From assembly GCF_036785885.1 (NCBI RefSeq), contig NC_092312.1, forward strand, positions 16,262,001 to 16,326,000: DNA of 64,000 nt, given 5' to 3'. Of this stretch, positions 290 to 61,808 are shown in pieces. How positions within the stretch are numbered: position 1 is the stretch's first letter; each line of letters starts with the position of its first letter. The position numbers were made by a program, and so were the translations under genes. The notes beneath the pieces were generated by a model. It made no database searches. It saw only the letters and a program-made list of their open reading frames with translations, and had not been told where the DNA came from. Origin of the DNA: Coffea arabica (taxonomy: Eukaryota; Streptophyta; Magnoliopsida; Gentianales; Rubiaceae).

Positions 290-3200
290 ATGGTGATGGA
301 TACTGGCTTTGCAACAATGAAAGCCACTGCCCACTTGGCAACAGTAAATGGAGAAAATGGAATTTGGGGGGAGAGGGTCAAAGGCAGCCTAAATGGCAAT
401 TTTTGGGTTAATCAGTTGGCAAAAAGCTTAAAACTTGACTACGAAAAGAAACAGAAATTTAAACCTGGGGCTGCTTTCTCGGTCATCACCAGAGAAACTG
501 GAAAAGAGACTCTGGTAAGTTCATTTTAGAGAATTTGTTTTTGGAGATTTTTGCTTGTTGATCCATCAGCCTTGAAGAATAAGTGAATAACTAGGTTCAA
601 ATGGTTCTAGTAAACTTGGAAGCGCTGCATGATATGTTTTTTGATGTTACCACAGTTTCGTTGATGTGCTGTTATAATTTTCTTGATATGCCTGTTGGAT
701 CTGTGATTCAGACCATAGAAGCACCACGTTTTGAGAGACGGAGGGCGGACCCTAAGAATGTGGCTGCTATCATACTAGGAGGAGGTGCTGGGACTCAACT
801 TTTCCCTCTGACGAGCAGAACTGCAACTCCTGCTGTAAGATCATAATTCTGGTCTCTTGTGCCTGTTTAAGTATCTGGTTTTCTAGTTATTTGATAAAAA
901 TAGATTTACCTTGCAATTTGTGTTATACTGTTCTTTTCAGAATGTATTAATTTTGTTATGTCACGTTGGTTTCAGGTCCCAGTTGGAGGATGCTATAGAC
1001 TTATAGACATTCCAATGAGTAACTGCATCAATAGTGGCATTAACAAGATTTTCGTGCTGACTCAATTCAACTCTGCTTCACTGAATCGTCATATCGCTCG
1101 AACCTATCATGGAAATGGTGTGAACTTTGGAGATGGATTTGTAGAGGTAGGAATCTGTTATTGTTGTATTCCTTTGTCATTTATTAAACTAAGTTCCAAT
1201 ATAGTAATTGAACTTTGATGCAATAATTGAAAAGAAACTAAGGCCTTGATAATTGAGGTACAAGAGAAGCTAGAGTGAAATAGGGACGGGACTCAAAACT
1301 CTCTGTAAGATAATTGTTTAGATCCGCTGAATTAGTATGCAGAAAGAAAGAAAAGGTTATACCTCTTCCTTCAAAACGTGTTTTTTTATATAGAACTTAA
1401 TGTGGAGTGGAGTATTTGGTAACTTTGTATCAAACAGGTTCTGGCAGCAACACAAACTTCAGGGGAAGCAGGAATGAAGTGGTTCCAAGGAACTGCAGAC
1501 GCTGTTCGCCAATTTCTATGGATGTTTGAGGTCAGTGCTTCTTTTTGCAGGTCCAGGATGCTATTTCACTTTGATCCATATAAGATCTAACTCAATAGTA
1601 TCTCAGCAAATCATCTACTCTGCTTTTATCGGCTTCATATTGTTATTAGTTTACATGGATATCTACTATTTTCTATCATAATTTTATAATACTAGAAATG
1701 CTTTTTCATTTACTTAAATTTAAATCTCATAGGATGCAAGGAACAAGGACATTGATAACATACTCATTTTGTCTGGAGATCAACTTTACCGGATGGACTA
1801 CATGGACTTTGTGCAGGTCTGTTCATCGTAAACTATTGTTTTTGGATACTTGTGTACCTAATATTTAAATGTGTCATTAATGCTTCAGATCCTTTGACAG
1901 AATCATGTTGATCGGAATGCTGATATCACACTTTCATGTGTCCCAGTTGGTGAGAGGTCTGTTAGAAAGCTTTACTTGTCAATCAACAACTCGCTTTAAA
2001 TCATGTTCTACCTGCTACTTGCTATTTCAGTTGTTCTTACTATTGGATTCCTTTACCAAAATTGAGAGAAACTTCCTATTGGATTTCATGAATGCCGGTT
2101 TTCAATGTGATGGGAGAGGGAGGAGTCAACAATTGACGAGAAATTTTCTTTTAGATATTTTGTAGATTCAAATGTATTTTTGGGTTGTAATTAGATTTGA
2201 AAATCTTATCTATTTCACATCAAATGGTTTTGCTTGGCAGCCGTGCTTCAGAATTTGGACTTGTGAAGATTGACAGCAGAGGCAAAGTGGTCCAGTTTTC
2301 TGAAAAACCCAAAGGTTCTGATCTGAAGGCAATGGTGAGCATGTGAATTGATAAACCTGCTTTCTGATCTGAAATTTCTTTTTTCTTTTGCAAAAGGTTG
2401 TTTTTCAAGTTCAAGCCTAATTCTTTGTGAAATTTATCTGCCAGTTCTGCAGCTACTAATCCAAACATCATAGCTAAAAGAGACTTTTTGTTTGCAACTT
2501 ACCCCTTGTATTTTTAGATACGCCGCAAAAGCTGCTGCTTACTTTAGTAGCTATTATACATGGGTAACTATTATTTCCTTAACTCATTTTTTTGGAGGCA
2601 CTCGAGGTTTCAAAAGCTAAATTAAAAGATGTGAAAAGTATAAGATACACACCTCTGTTCGTGAAAGCCGTCAATTCAAATTGTCAGGCTATTTCAATAT
2701 ACAACTGTTTTTTAATTTTTTGTCTTTCACTGCAGCATGTGGATACTACCATCCTGGGTTTGTCTCCACAAGAAGCATTCAAATCTCCTTATATTGCTTC
2801 GATGGGAGTTTATGTATTTAAGACAGAGGTACTGCTGCAGCTTTTGAAATGGAGGTATCCTACATCGAATGACTTTGGATCTGAAATCATACCTTCAGTT
2901 GTTAAGGAGCGTAATGTCAGAGTAAGCCAACTAACTTCAAATTTTGCTCTCTGCATATAAGTAACCAACCACGTTTGACTTTTTGTCTTCAGAAAAATAC
3001 CCATCCATGACAATGGGCATCATTTTTACAGGCTTATATATTCAGAGACTACTGGGAGGATATAGGAACAATTAAATCTTTCTATGAATCTAACTTAGCC
3101 CTGACAGATGAGGTTTGTCTGTTTGTCTTTCTCTTGCCTCTTTCACAAGTATTTAAGTCATTTTGAAATCTAAATTTCTGTTTGTGATTTCAATGTTTTG

Positions 3201-13995: not shown

Positions 13996-16900
13996 TTACA
14001 GAGTAATTGGGCAACTGCCCGTACAATCTGCTTGGGCTAATTCAAGCAGCCAAACTGGGAAGTTTTCCTTCCATTCAGTATCGTTCTCCAAAGTAACAGC
14101 TATTTTAGCTATCTTGTGACTAACAAAGTTGTTCACCCTTTTTGTTAGGGTGAAACAACATTCATCAAATTTTGATTTAAGAATCCTAACATCATGTACA
14201 ATTGTTGCTATAGCAGCGTCCTCCTCCTCGCTACTCACTGCCTTAACCACCTGACTACAGTCCGTTTCAAACTCAACCCTTCGCCAACCTTGCTTGCGGG
14301 CAACTATCATAGCTTCCCTTAACGCCTTTGCTTCCTCCACCTTTGGGCTAGCACAACTCAGACTAGGAACAGCCCAAGCCCCCCGCAAACGTCCCAGCCA
14401 GTCCCGCGCCACCAGCCCCCATCCTGCCCTATCAGCTTCCTGATGTAGAGCTGCATCTGAATTCACCTTAACCCAACCAGCCCTTGGCTTCCCCCACCCT
14501 GAAACTGTTTTCTCTTTATCCTTCTGACCCTCATCAGTATTCCTCACTCCTTCCAGCAGATCCTGATACTCCCTCCATTCCCTCAATGCCTTCTCTACCA
14601 CCACCCTTGGATCATCACGATTCTCACCAAACTGTCTCGCATTCCTGGACTTCCATATTTGCCACAGTAGGTTGACAGTTAGAGTGATGCGTTCCCTCCC
14701 ATTATCCTCTTTTGCCGCCCCCTTTAATTCCTCCCACCAATGCCAGAAACTGCCTGATAACCTCTCTAAACCATCCCAATTCAGTGGCGCAAGCTTCCAT
14801 ATCACCCTGGCATAGTGACATTGAAACAAGCAGTGTTCAATAGTCTCCACCTTCTCCCCACAGCTTACACACACTGGATCACCTTTCGAGCACCTTCCTC
14901 TGATCACTGCATTCACTGGCAGCACCCCATGCAAGCATTTCCAAACGAAATGCTTCAGCTTTTGCTTCATGCTCAAGCCCCACAAAAAGGTCCAGCTCGG
15001 ATGAGTTCCCATCTTTGTACAACTAGAACTAGCATTTGCTGTGCTCTGCAGCCTCCTCCTTTTCCTTTTCTTGGCCAATCTATAGCCTGATTTAACTGTA
15101 TACTGACCTGTAGCAGAGAAGTTCCAATATATTCTATCCTTTAGTGGTTGTATCCCAAGCGGAATTCTCAATATCTCCCTCCCTTCCTCCTCCTCAAAAA
15201 CTTGCTTGACCAACTCCCTATCCCACTTCCCATCCCTAATTAGTTCACACACTTTCTGTACCTTCACCCCCTCCCTTCTCCTTGATTTGATCCTTCCATC
15301 CTCAGCACAAGGGAGCCACCGATCCAACCAAATGTTAATAGATTTCCCATCCCCAATCCTCTTCCTAGTTCCTTCTTCCAAAAGATCTTTTGCACTAAGA
15401 AGACTTTTCCAACACCATGAATCACCACTGGCTGCCTTTGTATCCCAAATGGACCTTCCTTTAAAGTATCTTGCCTTCATTACCCTGCTCACCAGAAGAT
15501 TTGGCCTAGTCAAAAGTCTCCAAAGCTGTTTCGCCAGCAATGCTAAATTGAACTCACTCAACTCCCTGAACCCCAAACCACCATCTGCCTTAACCTCAGT
15601 CAGCTTTCCCCACTTGAGCCAATGAATCCTTTGTTCAGCTTCCTTCTGACCCCACCAGAACCTGGCCATCTCAGAGCATATCTCCCTGCACAAGGACTGT
15701 GGCAGTAAGCAGCAAGACATGACATAGGTAGGTAGAGCCATTACCACTGACTTCAGCAATATCTCTTTCCCAGCATGACTCAATAGCTTCTCTTTCCACC
15801 CCGTAAGCCTTGCAGTTGTTTTTTGACGTATAAATTCGAAAACCTGCCTTTTAGACCTCCCAATAACCAGCGGTAAGCCCAAGTATTTGCTCTGTAACAC
15901 TTGCCTCATTCCCTGTAGCTCAGCCAGCACTCTTCTTTTATGCACCTCCTTTACGTTCCTACTAAAAAATATTGAGGATTTCTCTATATTGATCTTCTGA
16001 CCAGAAGCTCGTTCATAAGCTTCTAGAATCATCCTCAGCTGACCAGCTTCCTCTCCATTAGCCTTGCAGAAAATCAGTGAATCATCTGCAAAAAACAAAT
16101 GCGACAACCTGGGAGCACCTCTTGCAAGCTTCAATCCTGACAACCTCCCTCGATCATTAGCTTGCTTTAATAGAGAGGTAAAACCTTCAGCACATATCAA
16201 GAACAAAAATGGGGACAAAGGATCCCCTTGTCTCAATCCTCTAGTAGGTCTAATGAAACCAGTCTTTTCCCCATTAAAATTCACAGCATAGGAGACACTA
16301 GTCACACAGTTCATAATCCAATTGATCCACCTAGGACAGAAACCCATCCTAAACATCACCTTGGCCAAAAATTCCCACTCAACCCTGTCATATGCCTTGG
16401 ACATATCTAGTTTGAGAGCCATGTACCCCTCTTTCCCATTCCTTTTATTTTTTAGGAAATGCACACATTCGTGAGCTACAAGAACATTATCCAAGATCTG
16501 TCTTCCCGGGACAAACGCAGACTGAGACTCACTGATACAACTACTAAGAACAGTTTTGAATCTATTGGTCAGAACTTTGGAAATGATTTTATAAAGCACA
16601 TTACATAGGCTAATTGGTCTGAAATCAGTCATTCTACAAGGAGCTTCAGTTTTGGGAATCAAGCTAATCAAAGTTTCATTGATAGACTTTAGCAAATAAC
16701 CAGAGTGGAAAAAGCTATGCACCGCCCTGATAACATCAGATTTAATAATATGCCAAAACTTTTGAAAAAAGGCAGGCGACATACCATCTGGACCTGGGGA
16801 CTTGTTCGGATGCATTGAGAATACAGCTCGACTTATTTCCTGCTCAGTAACTGGCCTGATTAGTCTCCTACTCATAGCAGCAGTTATAGTTTGTGGAACT

Positions 16901-18153
16901 CCTTGCAATAGTCCTGCAAAATCCCCAGGCTTATCTGAGGAGAAAATTTGTGAAAAATAATCCAAGATTTCCTTGCAGGTCTCCTCCTCTCCCTCACACC
17001 ATTCCCCACTCCCCTTCTGCAGAACACTAATTCTATTTCTTTTTCTCCTACCAGCCACCAAAGCATGAAAATAGCCCGTGTTTTTATCCCCCTCCTTAAG
17101 CCACTGCACCCTAGCCTTTTGACTCCAGTAAATTTCTTCTCTCTTGTAAGCCTCAGCCAATTGTTTCTTCATTTTGATCAACTGTGCCCGAGAACCTCCA
17201 TCCACTTTTTCCTTCATTTCCTGTATCTGTTTTTTCAGCAAATCAATCTGTTTACGAGAATTTCCTGCACATCCTCTATTCCATTTCAACAAATCCATTC
17301 TAACCTGTCTAATTCTACACTGTACTTTGTATAAACTGGAACCCTGCTGCCTCTCCCCCCATGCCTTCCTTACCACTTCCCCTATACCCTCTTGTTGTAG
17401 CCACCTTGAATCAAACATAAACCTTTTTTTCCCCCTCCGCCTTAATGGTCTTGTATCCAAGATTAACATACAATGATCAGAAGCCTCAGTATCCACCTGT
17501 AAACACTTAGCTTTCCCCATCCGATCTACCCAATCCTTGGAACCTAGAATCCTATCTAATCTCTCTTTCACCTCCCCTGCATTCCCCCAATTATTGCTCC
17601 AAGTCCATGGTTTGCCTTCATATCCAATATCCACCAGTTCATTGTCATTGATAAAAGATCTGAAGTCTCGCAACCTCCTTTCTGACCGCAGGTTCCCACC
17701 CCACTTTTCGCCATTGGAAACGATGTCATTCATATCCCCCATAATAGCCCAATATTTTCCCCACAATATCTTCCTCCTGGACACAACCTCCCACTGTGCC
17801 TTTCTAACTTCCGCATCCGTACTAGCATAAACACATATACACCACCACTCACATTTTGCTTCACTATCTTCTATTAAAATCTCAATGGTAAAGCTAGTAA
17901 ACAAAGTCTTTTTAACCGCCAATTCCTTTCTCCATAATACAGCCAAACCCCCTGCAATACCAACTGGATCCACCACAAAAACATTATCAAACTTAATCCA
18001 CTGCTTCACCTTATTTAAGTAACTTTTCTTTTTTTTTGTTTCTGACAAAAAAACTAAGTCTGGAGAGTGGAGTCTCACGACCTCCCTCAACTGGGGAACT
18101 GTCAAGGGGCTCCCCACACCACGACAGTTCCACACCAGAGCCTTCATGAACAC
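13996..18153 (-). CDS. LINE ORF2: endonuclease, reverse transcriptase, RNase H
   Basis: One open frame of 1385 aa. The apurinic-like endonuclease is at about 1-230 (WNCRG 8-12, E38, GDMND 139-143, SDH 225-227). The reverse transcriptase is at about 440-720: KSPGPDG 451-457, FVPGR 547-551, DMSKAYDRV 583-591, GLRQGDPLSP 639-648 and the catalytic FADDSLIF 688-695. A zf-RVT zinc-binding segment has C1095, C1098, H1107 and C1112. A C-terminal RNase H domain (about 1225-1365) has D1233, E1273/E1274, D1298 and H1346. All core catalytic residues I can check are present. The start ATG at 18153 overlaps the end of ORF1 by 10 bases, a layout found in plant L1 elements. Length and domain order are normal for plant L1 ORF2 with RNase H. 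Confidence 0.95.
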   Translation of the reverse strand: MFMKALVWNCRGVGSPLTVPQLREVVRLHSPDLVFLSETKKKKSYLNKVKQWIKFDNVFVVDPVGIAGGLAVLWRKELAVKKTLFTSFTIEILIEDSEAKCEWWCICVYASTDAEVRKAQWEVVSRRKILWGKYWAIMGDMNDIVSNGEKWGGNLRSERRLRDFRSFINDNELVDIGYEGKPWTWSNNWGNAGEVKERLDRILGSKDWVDRMGKAKCLQVDTEASDHCMLILDTRPLRRRGKKRFMFDSRWLQQEGIGEVVRKAWGERQQGSSLYKVQCRIRQVRMDLLKWNRGCAGNSRKQIDLLKKQIQEMKEKVDGGSRAQLIKMKKQLAEAYKREEIYWSQKARVQWLKEGDKNTGYFHALVAGRRKRNRISVLQKGSGEWCEGEEETCKEILDYFSQIFSSDKPGDFAGLLQGVPQTITAAMSRRLIRPVTEQEISRAVFSMHPNKSPGPDGMSPAFFQKFWHIIKSDVIRAVHSFFHSGYLLKSINETLISLIPKTEAPCRMTDFRPISLCNVLYKIISKVLTNRFKTVLSSCISESQSAFVPGRQILDNVLVAHECVHFLKNKRNGKEGYMALKLDMSKAYDRVEWEFLAKVMFRMGFCPRWINWIMNCVTSVSYAVNFNGEKTGFIRPTRGLRQGDPLSPFLFLICAEGFTSLLKQANDRGRLSGLKLARGAPRLSHLFFADDSLIFCKANGEEAGQLRMILEAYERASGQKINIEKSSIFFSRNVKEVHKRRVLAELQGMRQVLQSKYLGLPLVIGRSKRQVFEFIRQKTTARLTGWKEKLLSHAGKEILLKSVVMALPTYVMSCCLLPQSLCREICSEMARFWWGQKEAEQRIHWLKWGKLTEVKADGGLGFRELSEFNLALLAKQLWRLLTRPNLLVSRVMKARYFKGRSIWDTKAASGDSWCWKSLLSAKDLLEEGTRKRIGDGKSINIWLDRWLPCAEDGRIKSRRREGVKVQKVCELIRDGKWDRELVKQVFEEEEGREILRIPLGIQPLKDRIYWNFSATGQYTVKSGYRLAKKRKRRRLQSTANASSSCTKMGTHPSWTFLWGLSMKQKLKHFVWKCLHGVLPVNAVIRGRCSKGDPVCVSCGEKVETIEHCLFQCHYARVIWKLAPLNWDGLERLSGSFWHWWEELKGAAKEDNGRERITLTVNLLWQIWKSRNARQFGENRDDPRVVVEKALREWREYQDLLEGVRNTDEGQKDKEKTVSGWGKPRAGWVKVNSDAALHQEADRAGWGLVARDWLGRLRGAWAVPSLSCASPKVEEAKALREAMIVARKQGWRRVEFETDCSQVVKAVSSEEEDAAIATIVHDVRILKSKFDECCFTLTKRVNNFVSHKIAKIAVTLENDTEWKENFPVWLLELAQADCTGSCPITL

Positions 18154-18341
18154 CTTGGAGCCCCTTCTAGGGTGGGCTCCAAACCCTCAGACAGATCCAT
18201 ACATTCGCAAACCTCAATCCCAGTTCTAGCCTTCTTCCAATTTTCCTTGCCTACTCCCCCCACGCTCCCCTCCCTCTCTCCAACCACCAGCTTCCTTTTC
18301 CCATTCCCAGCTCCACTCAGCTCTACATTCACCTCCCCCAA
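18144..18341 (-). pseudogene. LINE ORF1 C-terminal remnant
   Basis: The last 65 codons of the element's ORF1 (nucleic-acid-binding protein), ending GAPRCS just inside the ORF2 start. It is basic (KRK, KKAR). The rest of ORF1 is missing because the insertion is 5'-truncated at 18341, right at the target duplication. On its own this copy could not supply ORF1 protein. Confidence 0.7.
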
Positions 18342-31676: not shown

Positions 31677-32016
31677 ATTTTTTATTATATTAATATAGGG
31701 GTGTCCGGATCAATTCTTACGGGACTCGACTAATCCCCTGCGGTCCAAAAGAGGAGGCCCCACTCCACACCGAGCACGTTAACAACGGGATTCGAACCTT
31801 GGACAAGTCAAGAAGATCGTCATACCCTATGGAGGGAAAACAGACCGCTCAAGTTATTCCGTGGGGCAGAAGACCAGCCACATAAAGTGACAAGTTTGTG
31901 GGAGGTAGGGATTGAACCTCTGACCTTCAACATCACCAAAATCCAAAGATGGTGATGACCACTGGATCAAATAACCAGTGGCTGGTCTTTGACCAAATGG
32001 CCATTGGACCAAAGAG
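31677..32016 (-). mobile_element. Composite SINE with two tRNA-like heads, 19-bp target duplication
   Basis: A 340-bp minus-strand unit flanked by the perfect repeat tgaatggaatcgtttattt at 31658-31676 and 32017-32035. Read on the minus strand, the first head (TTGATCCAGTGG, then GGTTCAATCCC) matches the SINE at 57734-57950. A second head follows (GCGGTCTGTTTTCC, then AAGGTTCGAATCCC) whose body, ending GATCCGGACACCCC, matches the SINE at 24261-24431. A single target duplication surrounds both parts, so the unit inserted as one piece. Confidence 0.85.
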
Positions 32017-54862: not shown

Positions 54863-56428
54863 CGGTAATACTGTTGGGTCGTCTCGATGGGGGTGCAGCG
54901 AATAAACTTTTTACTAAACAATGATAGAATGAACTATGAAGCAAAGTGAACACAGAAATTTGCCGCATGTGATGAGAATGTCAGTCCCTTAATATAAGGC
55001 TAGCCCGGCGTAGACTGTCAACGAATTGGTGGCTGATTAATATTCACATAACTGAAGTTCCAAGTTTTTGGTGAAGAACTTCACGTAAGCATGCAGAGAC
55101 AGAAAGAAAGAAGGATTGCTCTCATATGAAGCAGTTGCCAGCAGGCAGTAGTACTCAACTGGTTCTGATGTCAATGACTCGTTTGATCATATTGTCAAAT
55201 GTCATGCACCTTCGTCACATTCACTCAACGCGTTAAACATGAGCAGATGGGCTTACTGCATTAACAATTACTCAACTTCGTGACTCAACATTCGCAGCCA
55301 CACCTTAGGCTAAAAATTCAAGAAACTTCCTGCAATAATAGGAGGTCAATTTTACACAGCTCCCCCATTTTTGTTTTTTGTTTTTTGTTTTTCCCATTTT
55401 TTTCCTCCTCAAACGTACATGCAGGGATGGAGATGAGAGCCAAACTCGTGGTTGGGCTACTCAATCAAAAGCTCGTTATCGGTTTAGGAGAAAGTTTTGC
55501 ACAGAAATTGCAGCATCGGATCAATGCCTATCAATTTACTCATCATACAAGTGTCCGTGAACTAGTAGATGGAAAAAACAGCCAAATGGCAATTAGGTCT
55601 AATCTCTCCCATCTTAATTAGCATGGAATCTTGCTTTATTATGTTAATGGAATTTGAAGTTCAAACTCAAGGAATGTCTTTCTGTTTTGGTACGACTTTA
55701 TAGTTTGCGTATGTAATCCTAAATCCGTCCAAAGCGTTAGTCAAAAACAAGAATTAATGCACAAGGAATGAAGAATCAACTAATAAGAGCGGGTAGAGTA
55801 TGCTATCCATGTTTCGTAATAAACACTATCCGTTGTTTTCTTGGTGTGGAGGGATGAGATTTACCAAAAAAAAAAAAAAAAACGATAGTGATCTTAGGAC
55901 AATTTTGTCTTAGCCAGCTACTGTCCATTACTGCTGCATTTTACATTCAGTCCACGTTTTTCCATGAATGAACACCTATTTAACACGATTAACTTTGTTT
56001 ATATTCTAGGTGGTCGTATTAGCTAAGATCAACTTTCAGTATTAATGTATCAATTTGGATTACATGTACTTTATTGGCTACAAATACTTGCAAGCCATCA
56101 TTGATATCCTGACAAGTGATATCGTGTATTCATCATGCATATGTCAAGTACTTCCAAGCAGAACTCAGGTCGTAGAATGTAGTACGTGCTCATTAGCTTT
56201 AGAAAAATACTGTATATGAATAGAAAATATACAACTCTATAAAGAATTAATGGGATATAAAACAAGCTTTTTTAACTCAAATCGATTCACGAAATCTTAC
56301 GTTGTGATTTATGATTGGTCTACCTAAGATTTGAACATGGCACATAATATTTGGTAAAACCAATTCAATTGGTCCGAGAGTGAGATATTTTATGACATTT
56401 TTAAATTTCTTATAGTATTTTATGCACG
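54863..56428. other. Pectinesterase promoter and spacer
   Basis: AT-rich, with an A tract at 55865-55882. Frames at 55280-55621 do not resemble a known protein. No repeat with clear ends. Confidence 0.4.
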
Positions 56429-57090
56429 TTAATTCTATACTTCTTTAAACATTCACTTACTTGTTCAATTCGTCCTGAACTTGGGACATGTACGATTATG
56501 ATTTTCGTGCAATTATAAACTTGTTGTATTTTTTTTTCAATAAATTTGTGATGTATATTAGATGCTTTTTTTTATGCAAATAAATTTTATTTGTACACAC
56601 CAACTTAATATATGAATAGAATTATATATATAAATATACTCTAAATTCTGTCAGAAATACAATAATCGCCCGTAAACCCATCAATCTTAATCGCAACCCA
56701 TCGGTCATAGGAGCGGGTACTTGCGTTCACAAACTATGGTATTTCATCATTCTTTTCGGCGCTTTTTGGATGGTATTTGGTTGCATGGCTGGCTGGGGAA
56801 CCAAACTAATCGAAAGCAGAAGAAAGAACAACCAAATGGGATGACAAAACACAGGCAAAATTCGGTGATAAAGAAAGAGGAAAAGAAAAAGGGAAAAAAG
56901 AAAGAGAATTCGGTAAAATGTGTCACTAGCAATTCCATGATGCATGTTCACGAGGGGGTAAAGAAAGAATTAAGAAACAAAAAAAGCACTATGCGCTTCT
57001 TAGGTGCAAATGAGTTAAACTTAATCCAACAATTTGCAAGTTTGCTTAGAACAATTTGCAAGTTTGCTTAGTCAAAATTCTAGGTCAACT
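56429..57090 (+). repeat. Local duplication, copy 1 (contains the Helitron empty site)
   Basis: This unit is repeated at 57091-57275 plus 59897-60116 and 60605-60740. Shared phrases include cttaatatatga at the Helitron site, 'ctgtcagaaatacaataatcg', 'caaccaaatgggatgacaaa', and 'aattccatgatgcatgttc' at about 56930. In copy 1 the bases tagaa|tt at 56617-56623 are uninterrupted, so this copy shows the site before the Helitron came in. Confidence 0.8.
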
Positions 57091-57275
57091 TTAATTCTAT
57101 ACTTCTTTAAACATTCACTTACTTGCTCAATTTGTCCTGAACTTAGAACACATACGAACATGATTTTCGTGCAATTATAAACTTGTATTTTTTAAATAAA
57201 TTTGTGATGTATATTAGATGATTTTTTATACAAAGAAATTTTATTTGTACACACCAACTTAATATATGACTAGAA
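57091..57275 (+). repeat. Local duplication, copy 2, left part
   Basis: Matches 56429-56621 of copy 1 with scattered substitutions and small indels, and ends exactly at the Helitron's left edge. The two copies are about 85-90% alike by eye. Confidence 0.8.
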
Positions 57276-57733
57276 TCCTTATACTATATAAGAATGAGTT
57301 TGTACCAAAGAATGGTTTTGAATTTCAACCGTAAGAGTAGGGGTATTTTGGGATTGTAAGGTTGTTTTGAGTGTAGTTATAACGTTGGGTACTACTTAAG
57401 ATAGCATGTGCATTTTTATATTTACTGAAATGTTCTTGTGATTTGTTCAAAGGTTTGGGTATTTTGGGAATGTGTGATTATGTGGTTATCTTTTGTATAA
57501 TGGGTATAACCCACGATAGCTTATTTATTGGTGTAATTACTTAAATGTACTTATAGAGGCATTGATTGGCTTGTGTTAGTTAAATTATAAGTAGTATCAA
57601 TTATTACCATTGCTTTACTATTACAACTTGAAGACATTCAAATGCTATTTTCATCTCAATTAAAGCGTTTATTAAGGAATTTATGACTAAGCATCAGTTT
57701 CATCTTCATTTCTTCAAATGTCCTCTCCTTCAC

Positions 57734-57950
57734 TTTTTTTTTTTTTTGTCGAAACGATAGATGTCCTATAACCTAATCTAGCCTAGTCTAAGAGGAAGGG
57801 GAGGGGGTTCTATGTGAGTACAGATTCCATCGATGAAGGTCAATTAAGACCGCCACAAATTGTGGCAAATTTGTGGGAGGCAGGGATTGAACCCCTGACC
57901 TCCAGCATCACCTTTAATGGTGATGACCACTGGACCAAATGGCCAGTGGC
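57734..57950 (-). mobile_element. tRNA-derived SINE nested in the Helitron, 20-bp target duplication
   Basis: A 217-bp minus-strand SINE with the perfect repeat tcaaatgtcctctccttcac at 57714-57733 and 57951-57970. Read on the minus strand, the head is a clean tRNA promoter: A box TGGTCCAGTGG and B box GGGTTCAATCCC. The 3' end is GTTTCGACA followed by poly(A), the same tail as the LINE at 13949-18341. It must be younger than the Helitron it sits in. Confidence 0.92.
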
Positions 57951-59003
57951 TCAAATGTCCTCTCCTTCACATTCTTCCGTTATGTTCCTCTCATCTTCTA
58001 GTAAATACTTATTTGTACTACCTTTGTACTCTAGATTTCAATATGGTTTTATGCTAAAACTATTCTTGGTGGCTTAGCTTGAGGTGAGGTTTTATTATTT
58101 TTTTTATGGTATGATTTGCTTTGTAAAATCATAGTTTCTATTGTGAGTTAAATGCTTCTATTCCGAAATTAGATACTCTGTTAGCGTAATTTATTGTTAA
58201 TATTATTGCTTCCCACAAATTTGGTTACTGTGTACAATTTAAACAGTGTGATTTTGTTTGGAGCAACTATGAGAAAAAAGTTTTTGCAAGGAGTATTTGG
58301 AACAAGGTAAACCAAAAAACTATTGCAATTGATGCATTATGGTGTGGTTTATACTACAATTGAATTGTTTGAATGGTGTGATTTCTTATCTAATTGTTTG
58401 CTTTGGTAATAAGGTGATTCATTTATGCAATTGATTTTGGTGATAGTTAGATTCCGAGTTATTTTGAATTGGTAGTTAATACTTTGTCCTACTGATTTAT
58501 GTTTGTATCAAAGTTTATTCTTTCATGTATACGTTTGTATATTTGCTTAAGCTATTCATCAGAGTACTTGACTTGAATGTGGATGATTGGAAGGTTGAAA
58601 CCAATAAAGAATAACTACCAATAAAACTTGAAATCCCAAGTAAATCTACCTCCAATAATCAAACAAGTAGTTGGCTAAAGTCCTCTCCCCCTTAGTTGCA
58701 ATTTTCCACTGATGATCAAATTCTGAACGTTGTGATCATGTTGTCCCGTAGACCTTTATGTATATTTGGAATTCTCCTAATTTTTGGGAACTTGGTGGAA
58801 CTCCTATTATTTTAGATTGTCTGTTTAGACTATTAAATCATTGCCATGTACACAATTTTCTCATGATTATTTTCCTATTCAGTTCTTTTTCTTAGTTTCT
58901 TGTTTGGAGATGAAAGTTCCTATAGACATTTAAACAACAATATAATTTATTCTTCTGCCTTTATGACTTCATAAGTGCATTTTCTATGTAACATTTGTCC
59001 AGG

Positions 59004-59078
59004 AAAAGAGTTTCCTGAAGATGATAAAATACGAAGACTCATGCTTTATGCTGGTGCTAAACACGTTTTACATAAGGT
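59004..59078 (+). pseudogene. Possible captured exon inside the Helitron
   Basis: Between an acceptor-like TTTGTCCAG and a donor-like CATAAG then GTTTC, one frame reads GKEFPEDDKIRRLMLYAGAK followed by HVLHK. The composition looks protein-like, unlike the surrounding sequence. I do not recognise the source gene. Gene-fragment capture is usual for Helitrons, but this call is weak on sequence alone. Confidence 0.35.
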
Positions 59079-59896
59079 TTCAAATTCTAGTTTCTTTAGT
59101 GTCGAACAATGAATTCCAAACTTTCTTTGTCGTATTTGATGATTATTTCTTTTTAAATTGTACTATTATTTGTTTGTTGGTAGTAGCTTGAGAACCTTGA
59201 TTTTCACCAGTATGATTTGATTTATTCTTAGTATTATTTTATTGTGTACAAGAATCAAGTAGTACTATCCAATGTCATCTATTGTTAAGCACAATCACTT
59301 CTATGTATTATTTTTTCCTGTTAAAATACATTTTTGTTTCCTGCCTGGATAGTCTTATGCTTCTCCTTTCTAAGCTGAGGATATTTCTCTTCTGTTTGCT
59401 CAGAGTCTGCAGGAAGTTGCAATAGTCAAGTTTCATTGTTCATTGTCTGACTCATAATATCTTTTACGAAAGTGAAGGTTTTGCTCTGGGAGAAGGCAGA
59501 GAATGATTTGGACAAATTAAAATTGAGATTTTAATCTAATAACATATCTAGCAATTTTGCAGTTCTATCTACGAGATAACAAAGACAATGCAATGAAAGA
59601 TACTACTACTACAACAGACAACTACCATATGCAATACAAGCTAAATGCAACAACCTATTACTTTACTTTCATGTAAATATGAGTACTCGTTAGGGAATGA
59701 AATTTTATGGATTCCACTTTTACTCAATCTTCCATTCTTACGAAGTTTAATATATAATTATCCTTAATCTTTTCATGATTATCTTTCTATTATTAAAAAT
59801 TAGATTTCCATGCTGTTACATCAAATAAAAAATAAAAAACTATTTTATACCATATGCACCAAACTCCCGCACATTGCCCGGGCTATCTTCCTCTAG

Positions 59897-60740
59897 TTGT
59901 ATACATAAATACACACTAAATTATGTCAGAAATACAATAATCGCCTGTAAACCCATCAATCTCAATCGCAGCCCATAGGTCATAGGAGTGTGTAATTATG
60001 TTCACAAACTAATCGAAGGCAGAAGAAAGAACAACCAAATGGGATGACAAAACACATGCAAAATTCGGTGACAAAGACAGCTAAAAAAGAAAAAAAAAGA
60101 GAATTCGGTAAAAAGTGTTTGCAAATGAGTCGAGTTTAATCGAGTAATTCACGAACTTACTTGGTCAAAACTCGAGTTCAAATTCGCATTGACCAAATTC
60201 GAGCAACTCAAACTATTTGACGAGTCGAGTTTGAGCTTAATATATGAATCTCGAAAACTTATCGAACTTAATCGAGCTTTATCAAGTTTCATATATATAT
60301 ATATATATATATGTATGTATATTTTTTAAAAAAATTTTATTTATTAGTGTGAAATATCTATTTTCTACCTTGTTTAAAATTATATAAAATATAAATTTAT
60401 ATTTCTTAAGCTCGATTCGGGTCAATTAGGTTTGATTGGGCTCAATAAGTATGAGTTCGAGTTCAAACTTGAGTAATGCAAAATAAAATCGAACTCGAGT
60501 TGAACTTAATTTTCAAAAGTTTGATGAGTTCGAGTCCAAGTTTTTTAACTCAAAGTTGAACTCGAGTAGTATACTACTTGACTCGATGACACCCCTATTG
60601 TTCATGACAATTCCATGATGCATGTTCTCGAGAAGGAAAAGAAAGATTTAAAAAATGATAGATAAAGCAGTATGTGTTTTCTAAGATGCAAATGAGTTGA
60701 ATTTAATCGAGTAATCGAATAACATGCAAGTTAATTCAGT
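59897..60740 (+). repeat. Local duplication, copy 2, right part, with an insertion
   Basis: Continues copy 2 from the Helitron's right edge. About 59897-60116 matches 56622-56920, and 60606-60740 matches 56928-57060. Between them, at about 60117-60604, is an extra 490-bp block made of 'gagtttaatcgag', 'actcgagttcaa' and similar phrases, closing with GATGACACCCCTA. That ending is typical of a hAT-like non-autonomous element. It contains a TA run at 60292-60311. Confidence 0.6.
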
Positions 60741-61200
60741 CAAAATTCAAGGTCAAACTTGCATTGATCGAGTTTGAATTCAAATTCAAGCAGTTCGAGT
60801 TACTTGACAAGTCGAGCACAAGTTTAATATATGAACCTCATCGAATTTAATCGAGTTTTACATATATTTTTTTAATTTTTTATTTAGTAGTATAAATTAT
60901 CTATTTTGTCCCTTATTTAAAATTATATAAAATTTAAATTTATATTTGTTAAACTCAATTAATTTCGACTGATCTCGAATTAATCTTAATTGGACTCGCT
61001 GTGTACGGGCTTGAGTTTGAACTTGATTATTGTAAAACAAAGTGGATCTCGAGCCCGACTCAATTCGAACGCAACCTTCTACTTTCTACGACCGCAAGTG
61101 CATTGTCGATTTTAGGATAAACACGAAAATGAGACTGTCTATTGAGGACAGAACTGTAAACCTACAAGCGGCATGCAGCCTGCGGTTCAACTCCGTTGTT
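60741..61200. other. TTCGAGTT-rich spacer
   Basis: A second stretch with the same 'aatcgagtt' phrases as the inserted block at 60117-60604 continues to about 61070, then turns GC-balanced. The last part, with AAACCCTAATCC at 61226 (a telo-box-like motif), starts a likely transcript. Confidence 0.4.
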
Positions 61201-61808
61201 ATAAATTACGAAAATTAAGTCAGAAAACCCTAATCCAATCTCACTGGAGCTGCGGCGGGTCTTATAGGTGGTGAGACGAAATCTGTGAGTGTGAGATCAC
61301 CGCTGCTAGCTTTGAGCTTAATCCTTTTAAACATGGGAGTATGTATCGTTTTGTGAAATGTTGAATTTGTGTTTGTTTTGTTGAGATTTTGAAGGAGAAG
61401 GTGCTATGATGACGATGATGTCATAATATCTCGTTAATCTGATTTCAACTGAGGAAAATCCTCCAATCCATTCTTACTAGACTGAGCACCTTCTCCTCCA
61501 ATTTTTCCTGTCAAAATTCTTATTTTGTGTGTGTGTGTGGGGGTGATTTATCCGTCTTACTTCCGGACAGTGTCCTTTTCCTTTCTATTTGATCTTTTGC
61601 ATCCTTCCTTTGTTTTTTTCCCCCTTTTTTTTTTTTTTGGTTTTGGGTTCGAACAAAATCTGCTATTTCTGGTGGCTTTCAGATTGGCATTTTCAGTGGC
61701 ATTACTATTATCATTACGTCAGGTTGTGGCTGGGTTGTTAATAGCTGATTTAAACTTTCCAGCTTTTGGGAGCTTTCTTTTTCCTTTCTTATTTTGTTTT
61801 CATCCCAG
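61200..61808 (+). other. Likely transcript with an intronic snoRNA
   Basis: A telo-box-like AAACCCTAATCC at 61226, a GC-rich patch and a possible start ATGGGA with a good donor GTATGT at 61340 suggest the 5' end of a small gene. The acceptor TTCATCCCAG at 61799-61808 ends a T-rich stretch. Host genes of plant snoRNAs often carry such telo boxes. The host protein is not established. Confidence 0.35.
61394..61496 (+). ncRNA. C/D-box snoRNA, target not assigned
   Basis: A perfect 11-bp terminal stem (GGAGAAGGTGC at 61394-61404 and GCACCTTCTCC at 61486-61496) closes a box C ATGATGA (61406-61412) and a box D CTGA (61482-61485). An internal D'-like CTGA lies at 61449-61452. Stem, spacing and box order fit a C/D snoRNA with a mature size near 90 nt. 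I cannot match the guides to a known rRNA site, so the gene name and methylation target are unknown. Confidence 0.75.

Follow-up and report, generated by a model that had tools for sequence, protein, structure and literature searches.

A non-autonomous, gene-fragment-carrying Helitron in Coffea arabica with two unfilled sites in the same genome

The analyzed stretch of Coffea arabica DNA (64,000 nucleotides, C3:16262001-16326000, hereafter the window) carries at 57276-59896, on the plus strand, what is almost certainly a plant Helitron of the non-autonomous, gene-fragment-carrying kind. It sits between an A and a T within copy 2 of a tandem duplication of ~660 bp and has no target-site duplication. 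The insert is 2621 bp long, or 2384 bp minus a nested SINE and one copy of the SINE target duplication, and has the structure A/TCCTTATACTATATAAGAATGAG...CCCGCACATTGCCCGGGCTATCTTCCTCTAG/T. The ends are as read in the initial annotation: A is at 57275 and TC begins at 57276, CTAG finishes at 59896, with T next to it at 59897. The longest stop-to-stop frame fully within the element is 96 aa. Both ends, two unfilled sites, a dispersed family, a piece in common with a host gene and a nested SINE were observed (coordinates in Table 1). All of these observations fit the established Helitron model, and the element is of a well-known type.

Table 1. Features of the Helitron and its insertion site (window positions).
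Feature	Position	Strand	Remark
Local duplicate, copy 1, unfilled at 56621/56622	56429..57090	+	Right boundary 57090 read from sequence
Copy 2, left part of filled site	57091..57275	+	Alignment to copy 1, join scan, C4 match
5' terminal motif TCCTTATACTATATAAGAATGAG	57276..57298	+	267 exact genome copies, 209 after A
SINE target-site duplication, left, 20 bp	57714..57733	.	Exact repeat
Nested SINE	57734..57950	-	Head of tRNA type and A-rich tail judged by eye; nothing aligns to it in the 17 other copies
SINE target-site duplication, right, 20 bp	57951..57970	.	Exact repeat
Putative captured piece of a host gene, with intron and exon-like parts	58641..59532	+	Sense; 82% L060, 83% L061
3' subterminal hairpin	59866..59882	+	Decayed here; relatives' majority CCCGCGC-ATT-GCGCGGG
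3' terminal CTATCTTCCTCTAG	59883..59896	+	CTAG at 59893-59896
Copy 2, right part of filled site	59897..60118	+	Copy 1 homology resumes at 60608-60708

An unfilled site had been proposed in copy 1 of the duplication, and the comparison of the two copies bears this out to one base. When copy 1 (56400-57000) was aligned with copy 2 joined over the insert, the join was gap-free. BLAST matched 56426-56633 to 57088-57291 (87.7%), of which the final 16 bases reach into the element by chance; it also matched 56622-56736 to 59897-60011 (87.8%), so that the right match starts exactly at 59897. In a join scan of 41 x 41 positions (1681 pairs), the top score was tied between 57275/59897 and 57276/59898, because T stands at both the element start and the host. 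The initial annotation had expected a single gap at 57275/59897; the copies do run through the join there, but gaps of 6, 2, 66 and 8 bases lie elsewhere in the alignment. Two related 'cgag'-type repeats (60119-60607 and 60680-60960) are 84% alike over about 100 bases. The region of these repeats is an extra stretch in copy 2 relative to copy 1, and matching sequence is found on C4.

A genome search with copy 1 gave a second, independent empty site at C4:16441976-16442326 (16.44 Mb). Positions 1077-1200 of this locus (L056) match window 57153-57276 at 92.7% and positions 1200-3101 match 59897-61781 at 83.8%; a further match covers window 54904-56031 (93.3%). The break on C4 equals the window break to within one base, a T, and the Helitron is missing at that same base. 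Also missing from the C4 locus is 56032-57152, which takes in copy 1 in its entirety and 62 bases at the start of copy 2. Around the site, C4 has copy-2-like bases and, like copy 2, is without the 66-base stretch of copy 1, and therefore the C4 site was not overwritten by copy 1. We take this to be the corresponding locus on another chromosome; the gene loci described below likewise form a C3/C4 pair. Vacant-site comparison is already an established test: vacant Helitron sites of maize were shown by PCR (PMC2267711), and paralogous and orthologous empty sites were reported in insects (PMC6544945). The earlier statement that proving the ends of a Helitron is usually difficult was to this extent somewhat overstated.

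The family was searched for in the 1.2-Gb genome (131 contigs). The first 425 bases of the element gave at least 43 genome matches (40 of 960 candidates scored), and the last 297 bases gave 26 (all 26 candidates scored). Twenty places were fetched, of which 17 belong to the window subfamily, a lower bound, and three (L052-L054) are more distant. The 17 members are 90-96% identical across the matching part of the first 425 bases, and the BLAST match runs from base 1 in 16 of them; in L047 it runs from base 3 because L047 reads TT. The window and the 17 loci represent 16 insertion events when a triplet on C17 (L039, L040, and L042) is counted once. A precedes 14 of the 16 events (L037 and L049 follow T), and T follows all ten independent copies in which the last bases are preserved (nine with CTAG, L047 with CTGG), a count from which L037, with CTAT instead of CTAG at the aligned end, was excluded. 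Together with the two empty sites, these counts uphold insertion between A and T without target duplication, as first claimed for the window copy. The canonical last bases are absent in seven of the 17 other loci: L035, L043, L045, L048, and L049 finish earlier or differently, and L039 and L040 have lost the last 19 bases of the 3' end. The C17 loci, at 3.13, 2.18, and 1.33 Mb, respectively, carry a single Helitron insertion tripled by segmental duplication, with L039 identical to L040. At L043 and at C11:53564558-53565494, element 5' ends are found in head-to-tail repetition.

Comparison of the 500-base flanks of the 18 copies (blastn, E 1e-3) showed no similarity between loci except for the C17 triplet; it started at the last matched base in the five copies without the 3' end and ~100 bases further for L039 and L040. 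Relatives with conserved sequence beyond CTAG, the observation that had been named as speaking against the element, were accordingly not seen in these flanks at this threshold, the C17 segmental copies excepted. The first 23 bases, TCCTTATACTATATAAGAATGAG, are present in 267 exact copies and the reversed control in none, so that the 23-base match is not due to chance. These copies take in related subfamilies and segmental copies, and 209 of them (78%) are preceded by A, vs. 31% A in the window. The pattern GGGCTATCTTCCTCTAG had six matches, the window and five fetched members. Only two genome matches were obtained with GCGGGCTATCTTCCTCTAG, which is too strict because many hairpins are mutated.

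A hairpin had been noted about 10 bases before CTAG. Its position is correct (stem 59866-59872 / 59876-59882, 10 bases upstream of CTAG), but the fold is weak in the window copy (-2.8 kcal/mol, z -0.93; 39/200 shuffles as good) and strong in L051 (-9.7 kcal/mol) and L041 (-8.5 kcal/mol), for each of which 0/200 shuffles were as good. The fourth copy folded out of the eleven aligned, L046, gave -4.9 kcal/mol (14/200 shuffles as good). With the 11 aligned ends taken together, pairing is kept in 86.3% of 73 cells, both sides are changed in three of the pairs, and five covariation measures were reached by 6-39 of 500 shuffles. Two of the three double changes, however, come from L044, in which the hairpin is deleted and the letters are consequently misaligned. 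When L044 is excluded, the paired share is 89.4% of 66 cells, vs. 15.7-62.1% for registers slid by 1-3 columns, and 221-373 of 500 shuffles reach the measures, so that covariation was rejected as evidence; one compensated pair is present in L041 (CCTGCGC/GCGCAGG). We concluded that the hairpin is supported by folding and register, not by covariation.

The SINE nested within the element was seen in the window copy only: none of the 17 other element copies aligns to the SINE stretch. Base 464 is joined to 676 in 14 copies, 457 to 676 in L046 and 461 to 676 in L047; in L051, base 355 is joined to 774, inside a larger gap at the SINE position. ARAGORN detected no tRNA in the nested SINE (57734-57950), whose head we take by eye to be tRNA-like. 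The SINE resembles tRNA-derived plant SINEs in its tail and 20-bp target duplication; we treat it as separate from the Helitron proper. A diverged second copy of the SINE head is present at 31870-31983 (80.7% to 57846-57951). Elsewhere in the window, long frames appear plant-like by eye, presumably laccase-like, syntaxin-like and rRNA-methyltransferase-like. An uninterrupted 1396-aa frame at 13996-18186 (minus strand) resembles, by eye, a LINE ORF2 with endonuclease, reverse transcriptase and RNase H.

Searches with the element itself were negative. Four of its frames, including the exon-like one, had nothing significant in Pfam (one chance-level match, E 8.2), Rfam gave two matches (E 0.2 and 0.86) far under the gathering scores, and a 29-residue frame had one PDB match at E 1.4. 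Inspection by eye of the termini of the window copy and its 17 relatives revealed no terminal inverted repeats.

The sense-oriented piece in the element interior matches two loci, at C4:4.76 Mb (L060) and C3:4.56 Mb (L061), which are mutually 95.3% alike across 4.6 kb. Pfam was searched with five frames of L060: HAD_2 was hit above the cut-off (4.6e-7) by a frame that lies downstream of the match and weakly (0.023) by another, and the remaining three had no hit. HAD models in NCBIfam stayed under their cut-offs in two of four frames, and a PDB match was obtained to a phosphorylated-carbohydrate phosphatase (4.3e-4). These matches suggest that the host gene at the two loci is HAD-phosphatase-like. 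An exon-like frame at 58999-59079 is present in the window, in the 17 other copies and at both gene loci; an in-frame TGA occurs in 4 of 21 rows, and the frame of L036 is split in two. We infer that a forerunner of the window subfamily took up this piece. Three other places (C15:37672594, C4:70268014, and C3:70563052) were rejected as the gene source, the captured piece being matched over only ~120 bases; C15:37672594 (L057), the one of the three inspected for frames, has not kept the exon-like frame.

An autonomous-type relative with Rep, a PIF1-type helicase and common ends was found on C7. This element of 17,389 bases (C7:48773180-48790568) starts A/TCCTTATACTATATAAGAATGAG and finishes with a hairpin and CTAG/T. 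Its uninterrupted 1118-aa stop-to-stop frame matches PF14214 (Helitron_like_N) at 2.1e-58 and PF05970 (PIF1) at 8.6e-71, and an upstream 351-aa frame and two more frames gave no Pfam match. By eye, we take 'PHAHF' in the long frame to be HUH-like and read paired tyrosines in 'YTYKYIYKG'. Similarity of the C7 element to the window element is confined to the first 82 bases (78%). The 3' end of the C7 element is similar to that of the L055 subfamily (53 bases, 89%), and the window element's 3' end found no match on the C7 element at E 0.1. The C7 end was located via the L055 match and read by eye, and its stem contains a wobble pair; when CTRG ends on C7 were scanned for perfect stems ahead of them, nothing came up, and a repeat search there gave only an unrelated palindrome. 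Judged by these likenesses, the C7 element is a relative and plausible helper of the window element. L055 (C22:62033100; 79% at the 5' end) was rejected as a helper, having no frame of >=150 aa in ~1.6 kb; it ends in its own hairpin and CTAG and is thus another non-autonomous element.

Rep (PF14214) was searched for in the genome: 150 of 763 candidate places were scored, all above the cut-off, and 0/14 control genomes were positive. When the 125 listed 5' places on C1-C10 (of 267) were compared with the 85 listed Rep places on C1-C10, neighbors within 30 kb numbered one on the same strand (the C7 element) and two on opposite strands; further helpers may be present beyond the listed places. Three equal-score Rep places on C8 (523936, 540862, and 557788) have a regular, tandem-array-like spacing of 16.9 kb. 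Equal scores and long open frames are also common among the other Rep places listed and suggest that Helitrons have been active recently. Three versions of the 3' terminator were read: the window subfamily has CTATCTTCCTCTAG, L055 has CATTTCCCTCCTAG and the C7 element has CCCTTCCCCCCTAG. It is possible, at rather less than even chances, that one RepHel lineage drives modular elements with a near-invariant 5' end and varied 3' terminators and cargo, the HAD-phosphatase piece having been amplified in one subfamily.

Similarity by itself gives no direction, and the piece shared with the loci at C3:4.56 Mb and C4:4.76 Mb might have reached them from the Helitron instead of being host-derived. We consider this very unlikely: both loci match the element interior only, with the element ends unmatched in 5 kb at E 1e-3, a HAD-domain frame with the same orientation is found downstream, and at the gene loci the exon-like frame has stayed open (143 aa). 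That the insert is no Helitron at all, and is some other insertion or a rearrangement junction whose ends read TC and CTAG by accident, is the most improbable reading considered here. It could draw on the lack of a transposase frame and on the decayed hairpin of the window copy, but scattered copies have identical ends and unlike flanks, the A/T rule is obeyed, and a RepHel element with matching ends exists.

For the Helitron, then, we propose that tandem duplication was followed by C3/C4 divergence, insertion on C3 and finally the SINE, an order that fits the presence and absence of each part. The element would have been copied by a RepHel protein in trans, e.g., from the 17.4-kb C7 element, by rolling-circle transposition in which the 3' hairpin would act as stop signal, as expected from the Helitron family. 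The K2P distance between copy 1 and copy 2 is 0.101 (299 sites), above the C3-C4 distances, which are 0.066 over 337 sites close to the insertion and 0.025 over 1068 sites upstream. The distance of the window element to the family majority is 0.043 (2370 sites; 16 rows, L041 and L045 excluded for large extra inserts), more than the one-lineage half of the C3-C4 flank distance (0.012-0.033), and this would suggest an insertion predating the C3/C4 split. An insertion before the split and/or the local duplication, with the element lost precisely from copy 1 and C4, is nevertheless less likely even than a transfer from Helitron to gene. Base-exact losses would be required, two if the insertion predated the duplication; the copy-2-like bases on C4 speak against overwriting by copy 1; and precise excision is not a known property of Helitrons. 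The somewhat high divergence of the element might be explained by more rapid decay, C>T/G>A changes making up 46 of 98 in the window copy, or by a source copy that had diverged beforehand.

Published work describes canonical features of maize Helitrons (PMC2267711), gene capture in maize vs. rice (PMC2575219), and the ends, A/T target and terminator hairpin of Helraiser (PMC4778049). Plant non-autonomous Helitrons of maize, rice and Arabidopsis, as covered in the first two papers, are like the window element in TC start, CTAG end, A/T insertion, a palindrome 10-15 bases before the end, captured gene fragments and vacant sites; the window element differs in its particular sequence, captured gene and host. 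Helibat1/Helraiser, as described in the third, likewise has 5'-TC/CTAG-3' ends and an A/T target without target duplication, and its hairpin 11 nucleotides before the end has a comparable counterpart in the window element. Helraiser, however, is an autonomous bat element whose activity was tested, whereas the window element is a degraded non-autonomous copy whose mechanism is deduced by analogy.

The window thus provides a textbook-clean case: two empty sites confirm the ends, a SINE is nested inside, the captured gene piece can be identified, and the same genome contains a candidate helper. It helps to annotate the Coffea arabica genome and leaves the general view of Helitrons unchanged. If the modular reading is true, this genome would be a good one in which to observe 3'-end exchange and gene capture.
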